In this document: positions 15,567 through 38,697 of the stretch, piece by piece
Layout: each line of letters starts with the position of its first letter
Numbering within the stretch: position 1 is the stretch's first letter
Source of the DNA: a virus
DNA: 38,697 bases
Strand: one strand, 5' to 3'
Virus record (IMG/VR): IMGVR_UViG_3300010970_000096
Location: 1-38,697 of that record
Made by a program: the position numbers and the translations under genes
Notes under the pieces: generated by a model
The model's input: the letters and a program-made list of their open reading frames with translations, nothing else
Told to the model about the DNA's origin: nothing
The model's database searches: none

Positions 15567-17005
15567 TATCTGCTAGTAGGGGTTACTATTAAGTTAGCGC
15601 CTGTAATGACAATCTTTACGGGATCAGTACCAGACACTTCATAGACACGATCACGCAATTTTAGCGTCATGCCAAGACGACGCCAAAAAGCACGGAAGCC
15701 ATACTGACCAATACGCCCCATCTTTGTCCAATGTTCGCTAGACCACGTATGGCCGCCATCGTCAGACCAACGCAACATTACTTCAGGGTCGCTACCTTGA
15801 CCTAAGTTAATGCCTGGGCCTGACTCGCAAAGCAATTGCAAGCCATGTTGAGCCGTACGCAAAGTGTTATTTTCGTTAGCGGGGATAGGACGCCATGAGC
15901 GTAACCATTTCTGAATAACGCCGTTATCTTCATAGACATTAAGATCAAAAGCGTACAAATTGCCGTTTTCATAGTCGCCTACAATAGTTTTGCTATCAAA
16001 GCTCATTTGGCATTGGGCGCGGTGGCGGACAAATTCACCATTTACAAACCCAGCGCGTTCATGCCAAGCACCTGTGGATACGTCGTACGCCCAAGTCTTG
16101 CCAGCAGTCGGAAACGCCAATACGTAAAACGCATGACCTTCTTGCTGATAAGTGTAAGCAACCGCATCAGAAACGTCGCCATAGGCTTGAATAGCATACT
16201 CAATGGCGTGGGTAGAGATACGCTTACCTGTATAGCCTTGGTTGCGATAAACAATGCCATAGCCCCTTGGGTCTTGCCCAAGCCAAAACAAGCTATTGTC
16301 TAGTTTGCAAATAGATGACTTAGCAATACAACCAATCTCGTTATACGCACCTTGAATTGGCGCTAAAGGAAATGGTGTGGTGGCTGCGTCGTACCAAACC
16401 TCAGTTGTGCCTGTACCAAACACCCATACTTCACGGTTATTGGACACTACAGCTACTACGTTGTCAGGCGTACTCTCAGCAGCCGCAAACGCTAATGGAT
16501 CAATTAAAGTGCCATCAAAAATGCCTGTCACCCAAAGGATCTGTGTGCCTGGTTGGTTAAAGCAAAAGTAGCCGTCAATGTAGCAAACGGTGTCCGCACC
16601 AAAAAAGTCAGGGTCAGTAATCTGAACAAAAGTATTGATTGTTTCGGTGTAAACGTACGCATCAGCACCGCAAGCAATGAACAATTGCGTACCATTGTCG
16701 GCGATAGATACTGGGCCTGTACCGCTGATATTGCCTAATTTAGTAGCAGTAAAGTCAGGCAGGATCTTATAAAACTCATTGCCAGAGGCTACATAAGCAT
16801 CAAGACCGTTGCTCAAATGCGTCCAAAGCCCACGAATGGGGCCAGTGCCAATCGTAGCTACCTTACGCAAGCCTGGCGTACGATTAAGAAAACCCCCTGT
16901 GTAGCCACCTTCAGGGATGGCTTCAGGGAACAAATTGATCATGCGGTTATCCGCAGCGTTTACGCTACGGGCAACATACGCTTGGCCTAGAATCGGCGTC
17001 AGCAT
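15566..17005 (-). CDS. Packaged DNA stabilisation protein, P22 gp10-like
   Basis: A 479-residue tail accessory protein (P22 gp10 is 472). The start (MLTPILGQAYVARSVNAADN, RMINLFPE) and the recurring beta segments such as GLWTHLSNGLDAYVASGNEF and REVWVFGTGTTEVWYDA match the gp10 family, whose hexamer closes the portal after packaging and carries the needle and spikes. It overlaps gp4-like and the needle-position gene by 1 base each (TAATG). Confidence 0.85.
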   Translation of the reverse strand: MLTPILGQAYVARSVNAADNRMINLFPEAIPEGGYTGGFLNRTPGLRKVATIGTGPIRGLWTHLSNGLDAYVASGNEFYKILPDFTATKLGNISGTGPVSIADNGTQLFIACGADAYVYTETINTFVQITDPDFFGADTVCYIDGYFCFNQPGTQILWVTGIFDGTLIDPLAFAAAESTPDNVVAVVSNNREVWVFGTGTTEVWYDAATTPFPLAPIQGAYNEIGCIAKSSICKLDNSLFWLGQDPRGYGIVYRNQGYTGKRISTHAIEYAIQAYGDVSDAVAYTYQQEGHAFYVLAFPTAGKTWAYDVSTGAWHERAGFVNGEFVRHRAQCQMSFDSKTIVGDYENGNLYAFDLNVYEDNGVIQKWLRSWRPIPANENNTLRTAQHGLQLLCESGPGINLGQGSDPEVMLRWSDDGGHTWSSEHWTKMGRIGQYGFRAFWRRLGMTLKLRDRVYEVSGTDPVKIVITGANLIVTPTSR

Positions 17006-31256: not shown

Positions 31257-31711
31257 TATTTGGTTAGACCAAAGATGTCTTTGTCTTTAAGTCCTAAGTC
31301 CCTAGCGGATTCAATAATTTGTAAATATTTATGCGCGCCGATGTCGGCAGGGCGCTCAGTCATTAACCCACGAACAACATCAAGAGCCAACGGGTTATCT
31401 TTCCAACCACGCGTTTTATCGCCAACGGCGTCGTTATACGCTGACACCAAAGAAAACCCTGCTTTTGGATCGGGGTTAAAACCTTCGTCTAAGCCCTGAT
31501 GCGTAACTCTAAAAGCGCCTGCTTTTAAAAGTTTGTCAAAGTTTAGCGGTCTAAAGTCGGCAGACAGTTTGGCGTTGTCGCTAGTAAGCGCAGCGTATTT
31601 ATCAAAGTCAGTTATTGCTTCGTAGGGTAAACGGGCGCGTTGCTCAGGTGCCGAAGCCAATACATTAAGAGCGTTTACAGGCATTGGCGCCAATGCGTTA
31701 AGAGTAGCCAT
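31256..31711 (-). CDS. Hypothetical protein between the terminase subunits
   Basis: A 151-residue protein. ATG 31711 is chosen since it overlaps the small terminase stop (TGATG); a GTG one codon upstream is the other option. DFDKYAALTSDNAKLSADFR, FRVTHQGLDEGFNPDPKAGF and IIESARDLGLKDKDIFGLTK are visible but no family is recognised. Placement suggests a packaging or head function. Confidence 0.65.
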   Translation of the reverse strand: MATLNALAPMPVNALNVLASAPEQRARLPYEAITDFDKYAALTSDNAKLSADFRPLNFDKLLKAGAFRVTHQGLDEGFNPDPKAGFSLVSAYNDAVGDKTRGWKDNPLALDVVRGLMTERPADIGAHKYLQIIESARDLGLKDKDIFGLTK

Positions 31712-32154
31712 CACGCAACCTTTTGCTTTTGTGGAAGTTCTTTGAATTGTACATCTTCAACTTCTTCTTGTGCAATCGTTTGTACGCGGGCTTGCGCCAT
31801 TTCTAACGCCTGGTTGATTGAGATGCGTTGGTCGATCTCGACGTTGATCTGTTGCTTGGCTACCCAATCGTGTTGGTTTTGCAAGATGGTTGTGGCCGCC
31901 TTGATGTCGCCCTCTAAAGCGGCGGCGTGTAGCACCTCGCTCATTTGCATCTCGGACTCGGTACGCGCCTTGAGTTCAGCGAACTCTACGATGGGGTCGA
32001 ACTGTGCAAGTTGGCGGTATTCGCTAGGGAGCATCCCCGCAGCGATGGCAAGACGATCACCTTTCAAGCCAAGACGCGCGGCTTTCATTATGGCTTCGAG
32101 CCGTGCTTCGGTGGCTTCGAGCTTTCGAGGTTCGTAGGGAAAGCTTTGGAACAT
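31711..32154 (-). CDS. terS: Terminase small subunit (putative)
   Basis: A 147-residue helical protein. KAARLGLKGDRLAIAAGMLP, then SEYRQL, looks like a helix-turn-helix DNA-binding region; VLHAAALEGDIKAATTILQN with HDW is a pattern widely seen in small terminases. It is the first gene of the late operon, directly ahead of terL with one gene between. It would recognise the packaging start site on phage DNA. Confidence 0.75.
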   Translation of the reverse strand: MFQSFPYEPRKLEATEARLEAIMKAARLGLKGDRLAIAAGMLPSEYRQLAQFDPIVEFAELKARTESEMQMSEVLHAAALEGDIKAATTILQNQHDWVAKQQINVEIDQRISINQALEMAQARVQTIAQEEVEDVQFKELPQKQKVA

Positions 32155-32326
32155 GACTCGGATGTTATCACTTTTTAATAAAAAATAAAAATTAAAAAAT
32201 AATAGATATAGGGCGCGGGGCTATGTTGCTATAAAAATAAAAATTGTTCGTGATACCTCCCGCAGCTACACCTTCAATCGCAAGGCCCTACCCCCCACCC
32301 TCTAGCCGGCAGCCGGATTCTATTAG

Positions 32327-32342
32327 GTTAGTAGCTACTAAC
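32327..32342. promoter_or_regulatory. Perfect 16-bp palindrome at the origin edge
   Basis: GTTAGTAGCTACTAAC reads the same on both strands. It lies next to the first DnaA-box-like repeat and upstream of the leftward late operon, so it may be an operator or an origin binding site. Confidence 0.5.
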
Positions 32343-32356
32343 TTTTAGCTGGCAAA

Positions 32357-32673
32357 TTGTGGACATTGTGGACATTATGGGTATAGGGTTTTAAGTTTGT
32401 CCAAACTGTCCACAAAATACAGGGAATTTTTGCGGGGGAGGAAAAGGCTGGCGAAAAGGCAGGGCGATTGTGGACAACATGGGCACTTTGGACAACCACT
32501 TTTCAAGAGCTGGCTTATAACATCTGTTGCGTAAATACAACAAATATACAACCTATTAAGATAAAGGGAATTAAAACTATCCACAATATCCACAAGCCTG
32601 ATTCTATATAGCTCCCCGCCCCGTTTTTGATTGTCCACAACACTATCCACAAACTACCCCCGCATTGTCCACA
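32357..32673. repeat. Cluster of DnaA-box-like / iteron nonamers (likely origin)
   Basis: Copies of TTGTCCACA or near variants. Right-hand orientation: 32397 (TTGTCCAAA), 32406 (CTGTCCACA), 32577 and 32643 (CTATCCACA), 32586 (ATATCCACA), 32631 and 32665 (TTGTCCACA). Opposite orientation: 32357-32365 and 32366-32374 (tandem TTGTGGACA), 32469-32477 (TGTGGACAA), 32487-32495 (TTTGGACAA). Most copies left of the AT-rich centre point one way and those to the right point the other. Confidence 0.7.
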
Positions 32674-32693
32674 AATATATTTTGTGAAAAGTG

Positions 32694-32722
32694 TTGCATT
32701 GTGTAAAAGAATCGTTTACAGT
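32694..32722 (+). promoter_or_regulatory. Sigma70-like promoter for the rightward small-gene operon
   Basis: -35 TTGCAT (32694-32699), 17-base spacer, -10 TACAGT (32717-32722). Same boxes and spacing as the leftward early promoter at 4085-4113, so the two early units are likely to be switched on together. A hairpin (32730-32749) follows at about the start of the transcript. Confidence 0.55.
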
Positions 32723-32777
32723 TCTAAGTAACGGCAGCGTACCGCCGTTTTAATCCACTAAATTAAGGTAAAACAAA

Positions 32778-32897
32778 ATGATCTACACAACAAAAACCCC
32801 CCAAATTAAAACCCCGCCGACAATTTGGGAATGTTTAGGCGCTTGCACTTTAGGCGCTACTCTCGGTGTAATGTTCGCTTATGGCTTACTAATGTAA
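32778..32897 (+). CDS. Very small membrane protein
   Basis: A 39-residue ORF with a hydrophobic end (LGACTLGATLGVMFAYGLLM) after a Thr/Pro-rich start. First gene after the origin promoter; preceded by the repeated leader and AAGGTAAAA. Function unknown. Confidence 0.55.
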   Translation: MIYTTKTPQIKTPPTIWECLGACTLGATLGVMFAYGLLM

Positions 32898-33105: not shown

Positions 33106-33756
33106 ATGCAAAATCAATTCACTATTTCCATCAACGCGCTAAAAGGCCTCGATTTATTAGCCGCTAAGGGTGATATTCGCTATTATTTGAATGGCGTAAA
33201 TGTAGAGTTTAGCGAAACAACAACCCGCCTAGTAGCAACTAACGGGCATATTTTAGGAATCGAAAACCTCACTCAAAACTTAGTAAACATCGGCGCGGGT
33301 TCTCTTATTATTCCTAGCGACATCATCAAGGCCTTGAAACCCGTAAACAAGCGCGCCGATATTGTGCAAATTAAACAGATAGACGCCGCCCATTGGGAAA
33401 TTGACAACTACGGCACAAAAATAACTTTTTGCGCTATTGAGGGCAAATTCCCTGATTATGCCCGCGTAGTAAGTGGCGCGATGACTAACGGCGCGGCGGC
33501 ACAATACAACGCCGATTACTTAGCGACATTTTTAAAAGCGGCCAAACTATTGACCGGCGCAAAAACGCCGGATATTGAGATTATGCAAAACGGGCATAGC
33601 GCGGCCTTAATCAATATCACCGGCCTTGCTAGTTTTATTGGCGTAATCATGCCAACTAAAGGCAAAACAGGCGACGAGCAAGCCGGCGGCATAGCTAACC
33701 CTAGCCTATACGCGCCACTAACAGCAGCCGAACAACAGCAACCCGTAGCAGCCTAA
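33106..33756 (+). CDS. Shortened sliding clamp, DnaN (beta subunit) homologue
   Basis: A 216-residue protein clearly related to the beta clamp. DIRYYLNG (23-30) matches VRYYLNG of E. coli domain II; VATNGH (43-48) matches VATDGH; SLIIPSDIIKAL (66-77) matches SVIVPRKGVIEL; EGKFPDYARV (112-121) matches DGRFPDYRRV; VIMP (180-183) matches the last strand VVMP. Domain I and the first half of domain III are absent: the link between FPDYARV and YNADYLATFLKAA is about 12 residues instead of about 70. That leaves three of the usual six beta-alpha-beta modules. Residues 188-216 are a loose tail. Start ATG 33106 has the repeated leader. It may make a ring of another stoichiometry or imitate the clamp pocket. 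Confidence 0.82.
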   Translation: MQNQFTISINALKGLDLLAAKGDIRYYLNGVNVEFSETTTRLVATNGHILGIENLTQNLVNIGAGSLIIPSDIIKALKPVNKRADIVQIKQIDAAHWEIDNYGTKITFCAIEGKFPDYARVVSGAMTNGAAAQYNADYLATFLKAAKLLTGAKTPDIEIMQNGHSAALINITGLASFIGVIMPTKGKTGDEQAGGIANPSLYAPLTAAEQQQPVAA

Positions 33757-35223: not shown

Positions 35224-37524
35224 TTACTTAACTAGCACCATCTTAGGCGGGGGGTTCTCCTCTACCATACGGCGCAAATCAGACTTTGCAAACTCCGCAA
35301 GATCAGGCGCACAGAATATATGTTTTTTAGTATCGTACTCCCTAGACTTTAGCCGCCCGCGATCTATCCAACCCGCTTCTTTTAAGGCGTGTAAGAGTGC
35401 AGCCTGTGGCACTTTAACGCCTGACGGCGCGCTACCTGCAAGGCGATCACAAAGCGCGTGGAAGGGTGAACCAATAACACCACGCGAAAACTCCCCTGTG
35501 CGGTTTCTGAGCATTTCTACTAGGTAACTTTCCGCCATACTCATGCCATGCTCTATTAAATTGGCCTTAAATTCAGTCATCATCGGCGGGGCTGATGGAT
35601 TAAACCGGCTAACATCGCGCGCCATGAACCAATTAGCGATAGCAGCGAACCCGCCGGCTCTATACCATTCCCAAATCTTACGGGCGCGATCTGAGTTCAT
35701 ACGCGGGGCAGTTGACCACACACAGAACCAACGGCGATCTTGCGACGCAAGCGAGATAGGCACAGGGTCGTTTGAAAATGCCAGAACGAAAAGGCGGTTA
35801 GCCATCTGATAGGGGTGTAAGCCCTTGCGATTGATTGGGAGCATTTCAGGCGGCGCAGCAATAATTGGCTTTAATTGATTAGCTAATTGTCTGCGCGTTG
35901 CAGCGTCAGGCTCTTTTAACTCGTTAATAATCAAAATTTCTGATTCAAGCTGATAGCCCCATTGACTGTTTACGGAATTGTTATCCATGATGCCGCGATT
36001 TTTGAGGTGATCACCACAGACAGCCCAAATAAAGGGCGCCCAAAATGTATCTTTTCCGCTACCCTCATCGCCAGCGTGCAGAATAGCGTGATTGACCTTG
36101 ATACGGGGGTTTTGCACTTTAAAGGCCATTACATCAAAAATATGATCTAGCTCGGCTTGCTCAGGCACAAGTTCTTGGCAATGATCAAGCCAAAGGGATA
36201 TATCCATACTGGGGGCATTTGAAATCTCAGGACGGGCATCACGCCAGCGATTGCCGTATAGATCACCATCGCGGGAAACAATCACATCATCGCCAGCAGC
36301 GTAAGTAACCCCAACCAACGCCTTTGCGCCCATCGCTTGACGATTCTCATCAAAGCAGATTGACGCTTCGATCTTGCGCCCTGTGTGTAAGGATTTGCAA
36401 GGCACATGGCGGAACAAGGCGTTGAATGTTTGACGGCTGATCTCGCGCCTGTCTTGCATATCAAAGTAGGACTCATCGTCTTGTATGTATGCGAAGCGTT
36501 CATACCAGCTAGACTTTTCAATCCGTCCCAATTCTTTGCGCTCGACCTCAGCGATAAGCTCGGCTGCGGTATCACGATAAACATCATTTGGGGTTAATTT
36601 GGACAATGCCATATTCATCTTCTCAGCAAGCAATTCATCACGCAAACCATGATCTACTTCAGGGCCACCATTGTCAGCAACCCAATCAAGGAACATCTGT
36701 GAGCTAAAGTCCACGCAATGACCATGCAGGCAGCAGAATGAACGATCAAGGGGTTTGTAGCGCCCTTCGATGTTGCCATCGGTATGCTCGGCATTGTTAG
36801 GACAGACGATCCCCATCCAACCCTCACCATTGGCAGCAGACAGGATCATGCCCTGCTCATTAAGCCAAGTCACTACTGAATCTTTGCCGGTGTCAGCAAG
36901 GCGAATGGCTACGTTAGTAGCCGTGTCAGCAGGGTCAGGCACGACACCCAACGCATCGCATATCTCAGGCAAAGTGTATTCACGCTCAGGATGGAACTCA
37001 ACTAGCTTAGACGCAAAGTTATTGCGCCCTGGCTTAAAATTGATTGATCCTGGCAAACGGAAATTCCGGACGGCATTAGTAGCGCCTGGGTCGGTGTAGC
37101 CTGCCTTAGCAATTGCTTTGATGGCTGCGGTGAAGTCGCCCTTACTTGGCTGATCGCTAAATGCGTAGCCCCATTGATAAGACCCTTCGGATGTTTCCAT
37201 GATCCAAGTAGGCGCAAGTGGTGGCTCTTTGGACTTGGTACCGATGTCATCTAACATCATTACAAGGACGTATTCGCAGTTGGCGGCAGACGCAGACACC
37301 TTGCCATCGGCAAAGCGATCAAGGATGAATGAGCCTGTATTGCCGTAGATCGCCCAATCTTTCTTGATCTTGGCAGTCGGCAGAAACGCAGGCCAAGTGC
37401 ATTTAATCGTGCCATCGGCATGGGTTTGCATCATGCCGTTGCCATCCAATTGTGGTTTTTGACGCACTACAAGAGCAGTTTCACCCTCTGGTGCTAAGTT
37501 CGTGATATATTCTAAGAAGTTCAT
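35224..37524 (-). CDS. Primase-helicase: RepB-type AEP primase with SF3-like ATPase
   Basis: A 766-residue replication protein. The N-terminal part looks like an archaeo-eukaryotic primase: MMLDDIG near residue 90 with an Asp pair, APTWIMETSEGSYQWGYAF, and NFRLPGSINFKPG. A zinc-binding block follows (CPNNAEH and CCLHGHC, about 240-272). The C-terminal half is a DUF5906/VapE-like helicase with Walker A HAGDEGSGKDT (about 488) and Walker B ILIINEL (about 531), then FSNDPVPI as sensor. It primes and opens the fork for the adjacent DNA polymerase. Last gene of the leftward replication operon. Confidence 0.83.
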   Translation of the reverse strand: MNFLEYITNLAPEGETALVVRQKPQLDGNGMMQTHADGTIKCTWPAFLPTAKIKKDWAIYGNTGSFILDRFADGKVSASAANCEYVLVMMLDDIGTKSKEPPLAPTWIMETSEGSYQWGYAFSDQPSKGDFTAAIKAIAKAGYTDPGATNAVRNFRLPGSINFKPGRNNFASKLVEFHPEREYTLPEICDALGVVPDPADTATNVAIRLADTGKDSVVTWLNEQGMILSAANGEGWMGIVCPNNAEHTDGNIEGRYKPLDRSFCCLHGHCVDFSSQMFLDWVADNGGPEVDHGLRDELLAEKMNMALSKLTPNDVYRDTAAELIAEVERKELGRIEKSSWYERFAYIQDDESYFDMQDRREISRQTFNALFRHVPCKSLHTGRKIEASICFDENRQAMGAKALVGVTYAAGDDVIVSRDGDLYGNRWRDARPEISNAPSMDISLWLDHCQELVPEQAELDHIFDVMAFKVQNPRIKVNHAILHAGDEGSGKDTFWAPFIWAVCGDHLKNRGIMDNNSVNSQWGYQLESEILIINELKEPDAATRRQLANQLKPIIAAPPEMLPINRKGLHPYQMANRLFVLAFSNDPVPISLASQDRRWFCVWSTAPRMNSDRARKIWEWYRAGGFAAIANWFMARDVSRFNPSAPPMMTEFKANLIEHGMSMAESYLVEMLRNRTGEFSRGVIGSPFHALCDRLAGSAPSGVKVPQAALLHALKEAGWIDRGRLKSREYDTKKHIFCAPDLAEFAKSDLRRMVEENPPPKMVLVK

Positions 37525-37579: not shown

Positions 37580-38697
37580 TTATTTGCCGTATCGTTGCAT
37601 TGCATGAATCTCTACACCCAAGGGTATCCCCTTAGCCCAATCAGGCGGTGTACACATGATGTATTCCATCTTTTCCATTATTACGTCTACTTCATAAACG
37701 CTACACTCGACCACAATTTCATCGTGGACATGGAGAATAACATCATCCAACTGGCGTAAAGAATGACGCAGTAAATCATTAGCAACAGCTTGGGTAATAT
37801 TCTCACACGCCAATCCTTTCCATAATCTTGCTCTAGGCCATTCTTTTGCATCGGCTGCGGGTTTCCATGCTGCTTTAGCGTAGGTAACACCATCGGCTTC
37901 TAATTTAGCGTATGGATAACAAAGAACGCGCCCAGAAGGTAAAGCATACCAAAGATGCTGACCATCGTACAGGTAAGTTACCCTACCCGCGCTGAACTCA
38001 TGCCCTTTGTTACGCATCGCTCTTGTGTACGCTTCTTCTAGGTCTTGCCAATATGGGGTAGCCCAAGGATTTGCCATGCGCCACCCTGCAACCATACGCT
38101 TGGCTTGTGGTTCGGGTAGCAAGATGCCATAGGCTCTGCCCATCGCAGCGAACGCGCCCACACCGCCTGCGAATCCACAGGCTAACTCTTGGACTTTACC
38201 GATTTGCCTTTGATCCGATGTAACATCCGAAACTTGGACGTGGAAGGTAGCGGCTGCGTTGACTTTGTAGACATCTTCACCACGTGCAAAGAGCGAAAGC
38301 TTTTCGATCCCAGCCACGCTGTCGGAGAGCCAAGGATTGACTCTAGCTTCGATTCCTGACCAGTCTGCCACAACCAGACTAGCTCCGCTACGGGGGATGA
38401 TTGCGGGTCGTAACATACCTTTGAGGACATCAGTGACTCGGCGTCCAAAGGTAGGGACAATTGCGTGGCCTCTAACCATAGCTTGTCTAACGGCATCAGG
38501 ATCCTTAGCGCACTTTCGGGTGAAGTTGTGGACTTGGGCGCCATAGCTACTTGCCCGACCTGTGGCTGACCCACCAGCGAACACAAATGCGCCACGAACT
38601 CGGTGATCTTCTTCATCTGCTAAATCCTTTAATCGGTTGAACTTCGCAACACTAGACGCCCATAGGTCGTCCGCACATTGGATAACATCTGCAACTT
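37580..38697 (-). CDS. polA: DNA polymerase I family A, C-terminal part (palm, fingers, thumb), cut by contig edge
   Basis: This is the 3-prime part of the polymerase gene that begins at 1251. It is open to the right contig edge; the frame continues beyond the internal Met at 38584. Motif A ADWSGIEARVNPWL is encoded near 38360, motif B RQIGKVQELACGFAGGVGAF near 38180, and motif C LHVHDEIVVE near 37720. The catalytic Asp of A and the HDE of C are intact. The part 38306-38697 duplicates 1-392 as a different allele. Joined to base 393, the whole protein has 658 residues. Confidence 0.92.
   Translation of the reverse strand, partial: VADVIQCADDLWASSVAKFNRLKDLADEEDHRVRGAFVFAGGSATGRASSYGAQVHNFTRKCAKDPDAVRQAMVRGHAIVPTFGRRVTDVLKGMLRPAIIPRSGASLVVADWSGIEARVNPWLSDSVAGIEKLSLFARGEDVYKVNAAATFHVQVSDVTSDQRQIGKVQELACGFAGGVGAFAAMGRAYGILLPEPQAKRMVAGWRMANPWATPYWQDLEEAYTRAMRNKGHEFSAGRVTYLYDGQHLWYALPSGRVLCYPYAKLEADGVTYAKAAWKPAADAKEWPRARLWKGLACENITQAVANDLLRHSLRQLDDVILHVHDEIVVECSVYEVDVIMEKMEYIMCTPPDWAKGIPLGVEIHAMQRYGK
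38306..38697. repeat. Right copy of the diverged terminal overlap
   Basis: Ungapped match to 1-392 with about 82 percent identity. It encodes the same polymerase segment with few amino acid changes (for example, PRSGAS here against PGADRS at the left end). It supports a circular map with two alleles. Confidence 0.85.

Follow-up and report, generated by a model that had tools for sequence, protein, structure and literature searches.

An array of 9-mer repeats in a freshwater phage, a probable replication origin, changes its word together with the wing hairpin of the phage's primase-helicase

Introduction

SaPI Rep and SCCmec Cch2 are self-loading helicases in which a C-terminal domain recognises the short iterons that serve as the origin, and in SaPI5 the primase and the helicase are fused (PMC7581432). 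For P4 alpha, PMC4234260, citing Yeo et al. 2002, describes one protein that primes, unwinds and binds the repeats of the origin by means of a C-terminal winged helix; its primase is of the TOPRIM type (PMC4234260). In the ICP1 system, the DNA-binding domain of the initiator RepA of the PLE satellite covaries with the iterons of the origin, and the modules swap (PMC8263062). Here we describe a dense array of 9-mer repeats in a freshwater phage, which is present in the relatives of this phage under changing words, the word changing together with a short stretch near the C-terminus of the phage's own primase-helicase.

Results

The stretch of DNA analysed here (referred to as the window) is the whole 38,697 bp record of a complete-looking virus. 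Its ends, 1-392 and 38306-38697, share a 392-bp overlap of about 82% identity, 55 bp of it exact, and the junction between them falls inside the DNA polymerase A gene, which indicates that the genome closes on itself, though imperfectly, perhaps reflecting two strain variants in one assembly. The array lies in an intergenic region (32155-32780) from which transcription diverges, with a leftward block of the TerS-like gene, the large terminase and the structural genes on one side and a rightward block including a beta-clamp-like gene on the other. It is located about 0.2 kb upstream of the TerS-like gene, 1.1 kb from the large terminase and about 2.5 kb 3' of the primase-helicase gene, with other genes between. 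On the plus strand, 33106-33756 encodes a 216-aa protein in which, of the DNA polymerase III beta clamp, the central domain alone is present (Pfam DNA_pol3_beta_2, E 8e-11); PHROG adds the labels 'RusA-like' and processivity factor. The polymerase of the phage belongs to family A. A relative of the 216-aa protein is present in 20 of the 139 compared loci. Around the array no DNA similarity to GenBank phages was found. In genome collections the relatives occur as contigs binned into MAGs, two of them in one Rhodoferax MAG, which is too weak for naming a host.

Eleven nonamers make up the array, starting at 32358, 32367, 32469 and 32487 on the minus strand and at 32397, 32406, 32577, 32586, 32631, 32643 and 32665 on the plus strand; nine of them contain TRTCCACA and two are TTGTCCAAA. 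Across the whole record TRTCCACA occurs 10 times compared to 2.0 expected, and all copies except the one at 16073 fall inside the array. The largest TRTCCACA cluster in 100 shuffles of the whole record held two copies, compared to the nine observed, and 2,000 local shuffles gave a mean of 0.03 and again a largest value of 2. Four of the six words to the left of the centre lie on the minus strand and all five to its right on the plus strand, and most words stand in tandem 9-mers on both sides (Table 1). These observations bear out the preliminary description in its count of about 11 nonamers in some 320 bases, a cluster that the shuffles never approach, and in its statement that most left copies are inverted relative to the right ones. 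The two direct tandem 9-bp copies it placed on the left are real, with the amendment that there are several such sets, one of them with a degenerate middle copy. The AT-rich centre is likewise present, but only moderately AT-rich (75% in the best 60 bp). The switch in cumulative GC skew it predicted for this place does not occur: the extremes of the detrended cumulative skew lie at about 3.97 and 9.48 kb, where they coincide with changes of gene direction, and not at 32.5 kb. A second short element, similar to GCCTTATTCTATA, is found at 32311-32323 and 32595-32607 in the window and near the array in 23 of 139 loci, with none in control stretches 3 kb away; it may be a promoter or another site.

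Table 1. Positions of the array, its parts and the genes considered as its readers.
Feature	Position	Strand	Basis
Iteron array (probable replication origin): 11 TTGTCCACA-type words, as tandem 9-mers of opposed orientation	32357..32673	.	word scan, shuffles, same place in relatives
Tandem pair ATGTCCACA / ATGTCCACA	32358..32375	-	
Tandem pair TTGTCCAAA / CTGTCCACA	32397..32414	+	
Three tandem 9-mers TTGTCCACA / GTGCCCATG (degenerate) / TTGTCCAAA	32469..32495	-	
AT-rich centre between the arms, proposed unwinding element	32496..32576	.	72% AT in 32520-32559
Tandem pair CTATCCACA / ATATCCACA	32577..32594	+	
Three right-arm words at 32631, 32643, 32665	32631..32673	+	
TerS-like gene, adjoins the array	31711..32154	-	tested, rejected as repeat reader
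Primase-helicase gene, 766 aa; proposed array-binding initiator	35224..37524	-	
C-terminal winged-helix domain, residues 683-738	35311..35478	-	AlphaFold2 models
Wing hairpin, residues 722-736 (RGRLKSREYDTKKHI); telling positions Lys726, Arg728, Asp731	35317..35361	-	covariation with array word

For comparison, 80 loci with a related large terminase were fetched, and nearly all that reach far enough carry a dense array of repeats, which lies upstream of the start of the terminase at a distance of about 0.9-1.7 kb. The words of these arrays are TGTCCACA; TGACCCAA or TGACCCAT; TGACTCAC mixed with TGACCCAC; TGACAATT; and TGACTAAC or TGACTGAC. Overall, the words of relatives' arrays in the same place as that of the window include TGACCCAA, TGACAATTT, TGACTCACA, TGACTAACA and TGACTACA, among others; of these and further words, later scans contributed TGACTACA, TACCCACA, CTTGTCCA and GGTCCACA as well as, outside the class list, TGACGTGCA, TGACTATG, TTGCCAAT, TGACCTA and TACCCCAC. 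Different words stand beside terminases that are 92-98% identical; the terminase, TerS and most of the primase-helicase hardly change while the array word does. Taken as a whole, the primase-helicase is 63-92% identical across the long relatives. The layout is that of the window, with a median array span of 348 bp and a median of 77% AT in the best 60 bp inside the array, 81% of the words left of the AT-rich stretch lying on one strand and 80% of those right of it on the other. Neighbours on the same strand are spaced by exactly 9 bp in 493 of 740 cases, the exceptions including TGACAATT, for which 8 bp is usual, and TGACYCAC with 10 bp.

Some arrays, amongst them those of loci L008 and L205, mix two words (for example TGTCCACA ten times with TGACCCAC seven to eight times) and may be intermediate states in a change of specificity. 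Metagenome 3300017754 holds three types, namely TGTCCACA (L205), TGACCCAT (L241) and TGACYCAC (L410). In several relatives the stretch directly after the primase stop codon carries 27-bp units (AATCGAAAA..GCGTCT; 2352-2800 in L209, similar in L204 and L260) together with microsatellite-like tandem repeats such as CTGGTCTGGTGT x17. A GenBank relative at the protein level, MW202483.1 (L277) from Manatee Spring, is 55% identical and pairs the word GTTTACATAAAC with the wing CFAPELSTKRH; this pair lies outside our code table and is in line with a wing that matches its word. Between its primase and its array (L277, 7083-7379) lies the gene of a 98-aa protein whose annotation reads 'dnaa protein helix-turn-helix'; despite this neighbouring annotation the array word of the relative is not a DnaA box.

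A first comparison within bins of matched identity pointed to one place near the C-terminus of the primase-helicase as following the word. A window scan used 139 distinct primase-helicase/array pairs; for each 15-residue window, the difference in sequence was correlated with the difference in word, corrected for the divergence in the remainder of the protein. Residues 722-736 track the array word with a partial r of 0.686, while the next best window of the protein reaches 0.23. The rival determinants covered by the scan, a part of the phage's genes, gave best values of 0.12 for TerS (136 loci), 0.13 for TerL, 0.20 for PolA and 0.29 for the clamp (n=20), and for 1.2 kb of DNA flanking the primase gene the value was 0.12. 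Hitch-hiking by linkage was rejected on these grounds, since the word is followed far less by the primase stretch 742-766, which is nearer to the array than the wing, by the neighbouring 1.2 kb of DNA and by TerS, which lies on the far side of the array.

The position of the array close to the terminase genes also raises the possibility that it is the packaging site (pac or cos) and is recognised by the small terminase subunit, whose gene adjoins it, as pac sites often carry repeats near terS. TerS is, however, almost the same in a locus with TGTCCACA (L047) and one with TGACCCAC (L038), and none of its 15-residue windows follows the word, so that TerS was rejected as the reader of the repeats and we consider a packaging site extremely improbable.

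In order to see how far the wing alone foretells the word, we took the 41 loci from the terminase scan, the window among them, as the training set and predicted the word class of 97 loci found later. The wing gave the correct class in 87 of 97 (89.7%) and the rest of the protein in 58 of 97 (59.8%), the misses of the wing being mostly new or neighbouring sub-types. Two more scans supplied a further 49 typed loci, for which the wing was right in 48 cases and the rest of the protein in 36; 31 additional new loci went unscored, their words being outside the class list or present in too few copies. At the level of single residues, Arg728 goes with words ending in -ACA in 137 of 137 pairs, a count that leaves out two TTGTCCAW loci as ambiguous. 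The same 139 loci had served to frame this rule, and its subsequent test consists of the 49 typed loci, all of which obey it. Lys726 together with Asp731 occurs with 56 of 56 TGTCCACA arrays and with 5 of 83 others, mostly of neighbouring words. A tree from which the wing columns were excluded shows at least 27 changes of word. Relatives do not count as independent observations, and with only 13-14 switches scored as independent, the agreement between Arg728 and -ACA holds in 14 of 14 (sign test, p 1.2e-4). A natural pair illustrates the point: L260 and L261 are 96.8% identical outside the wing and differ in 6 of 17 wing residues, and their arrays consist of TGTCCACA and TGACAATT, respectively.

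The likeness of TTGTCCACA and TATCCACA to the DnaA box, in a dense array flanking an AT-rich centre, would suit a reading in which host DnaA binds these words as true DnaA boxes and loads the host helicase for phage replication; recruitment of host DnaA was one of two options in the preliminary description. Against this stand the words TGACCCAA, TGACAATT or TGACTCAC, found instead beside near-identical terminases or primases, the absence of any exact TTATCCACA, the matches being TTGTCCACA or one-off words, and the prediction of the word from the primase wing, which recruitment of DnaA would not explain. We regard host DnaA recruitment as very improbable: the words in close relatives are no DnaA boxes, and it is a loop of the phage primase-helicase that the word follows. 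This favours the other option then put forward, that a phage protein uses the repeats as iterons. The DnaA-box likeness is a coincidence of one specificity class, the one in which Lys726, Arg728 and Asp731 occur with TGTCCACA. Loss of the repeats in close relatives, which had been named as speaking against an origin, is seen in form only, as the array stays and its word is replaced.

The helicase part of the primase-helicase is SF3-like, with a match to DUF5906 and a Walker A motif (GGDxGSGKDT) visible in the alignment, and the N-terminal part has a weak match to the Pfam family RepB_primase. Structure searches with the full-length model returned the C-terminal region of NrS-1 PrimPol as the best match (E 1.1e-6), the AEP primases RepB' (E about 4e-5) and S-2L (E about 5e-5) and, as a weak match, the SaPI5 primase-helicase (E 0.04), and NrS-1 was also matched by sequence in the helicase part (E 1.5e-4). 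The protein is accordingly a fusion of an AEP-type primase and an SF3-like helicase, followed by a predicted C-terminal winged helix. AlphaFold gives this winged helix both for residues 641-766 alone (mean pLDDT 78) and within the whole protein (pLDDT 67 overall, about 82-88 for residues 711-750). The predicted strands 720-725 and 734-738 frame the wing hairpin containing the specificity stretch, and helix 707-717, which precedes the wing, is much alike in all word types. A Foldseek search with the winged-helix domain gave no significant match (best E 0.1); most of its top matches are winged-helix proteins, the P4 domain not being among them. By sequence, the C-terminal domain has no match among solved structures (best E 0.37, a lysozyme).

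Discussion

Judged from the sequence comparisons, the array is very likely an iteron-type origin, or at least a loading site, of the phage's own primase-helicase, the wing hairpin reading the variable bases. The C-terminal winged helix would bind the tandem 9-mers in both arms around the AT-rich centre, with the wing hairpin (722-736) contacting the bases that vary between words; the bound copies would assemble as helicase rings, the rings would open the AT-rich centre, and both strands would be primed for the phage polymerase. The origin proposed in the preliminary description is well supported as an origin-like iteron array. The sequences show the array, its kept layout in relatives under changing words, and the joint change of word and wing; a start of replication at the array, with direct binding, ring loading and unwinding, is what we infer from them, the GC skew running without a switch. 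The absence of a skew switch, together with the position between divergently transcribed genes, would also suit an operator to which the primase-helicase binds via its wing for regulation and not to start replication. We think this unlikely, as origins usually consist of such components, with a helicase-primase that binds, opposed arms of iterons and an AT-rich centre, and as the iteron arrays to which the SaPI Rep and Cch2 helicases bind are described as origins (PMC7581432).

Beyond a probable origin bound by the primase-helicase, the data raise a wider proposal, whose chances we judge to be about even. The wing, and not the recognition helix, would carry a code of nearly one residue to one base for the iterons of a large family of freshwater phages, Arg728 being paired with the C of -ACA, and Lys726 and Asp731 with TGTCC. 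Code and array would have switched jointly dozens of times, leaving many mutually incompatible origin types side by side in the same waters, and a likely driver would be interference from co-infecting phages or satellites which make use of the origin or attack it. Several types occur in one water body (metagenome 3300017754); this would agree with selection for being different from relatives or satellites in the same cell, though such a driver is conjecture.

Joint changes of initiator and origin are usually too rare for a recognition code to be read from sequence. Here there are hundreds of natural matched pairs, many near-identical elsewhere, which makes a DNA-recognition code of a winged helix readable and testable. 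It also means that the primase alone suffices to locate and type phage origins in metagenomes, that the reason why phages keep switching origin specificity becomes testable, and that clusters resembling DnaA boxes in phages need not imply host DnaA.

The locus differs from a bacterial oriC: several consensus boxes (TTATNCACA) would be expected there, and the exact TTATCCACA is absent here; a box would stay constant among close relatives because host DnaA is constant, whereas the word differs between near-identical phages; and a GC-skew switch would be expected at the origin, whereas the skew extremes lie elsewhere. The covariation recalls PLE RepA, which, however, belongs to the RepA_N family and has two module types exchanged as whole domains, while here a 15-residue wing within a winged helix accompanies at least 9 words and at least 27 changes. 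NrS-1 PrimPol-helicase supplies the best structural match with its C-terminal region 305-718, in addition to the sequence match in the helicase; none of the matches obtained is known to extend over the winged helix with its wing code.

With SaPI Rep, SaPI5 and Cch2 the phage protein shares an SF3/D5-like helicase (DUF5906, Walker A, match to the NrS-1 region) and, as the covariation suggests, a C-terminal domain that sets iteron specificity. It differs in that the SaPI origin lies directly downstream of the helicase gene, in a helicase part nearer to the C-terminal region of NrS-1, and in a replicon that is a whole 38-kb phage. A C-terminal winged helix such as that of P4 alpha is predicted here by the AlphaFold models, and the top Foldseek matches are mainly winged-helix proteins, at E-values of 0.1 or worse and without the P4 domain. 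P4 has a second repeat cluster (crr), and there is no such cluster here, where a single TRTCCACA stands outside the array; the primase, moreover, is of the AEP type (matches to RepB' and S-2L PrimPol, weak RepB_primase) and not TOPRIM. Membership in the P4 alpha family fails because of this primase type and the missing second cluster. The array with its primase-helicase probably works in the manner of P4 alpha or SaPI Rep, by analogy and not as a demonstrated member of either group.
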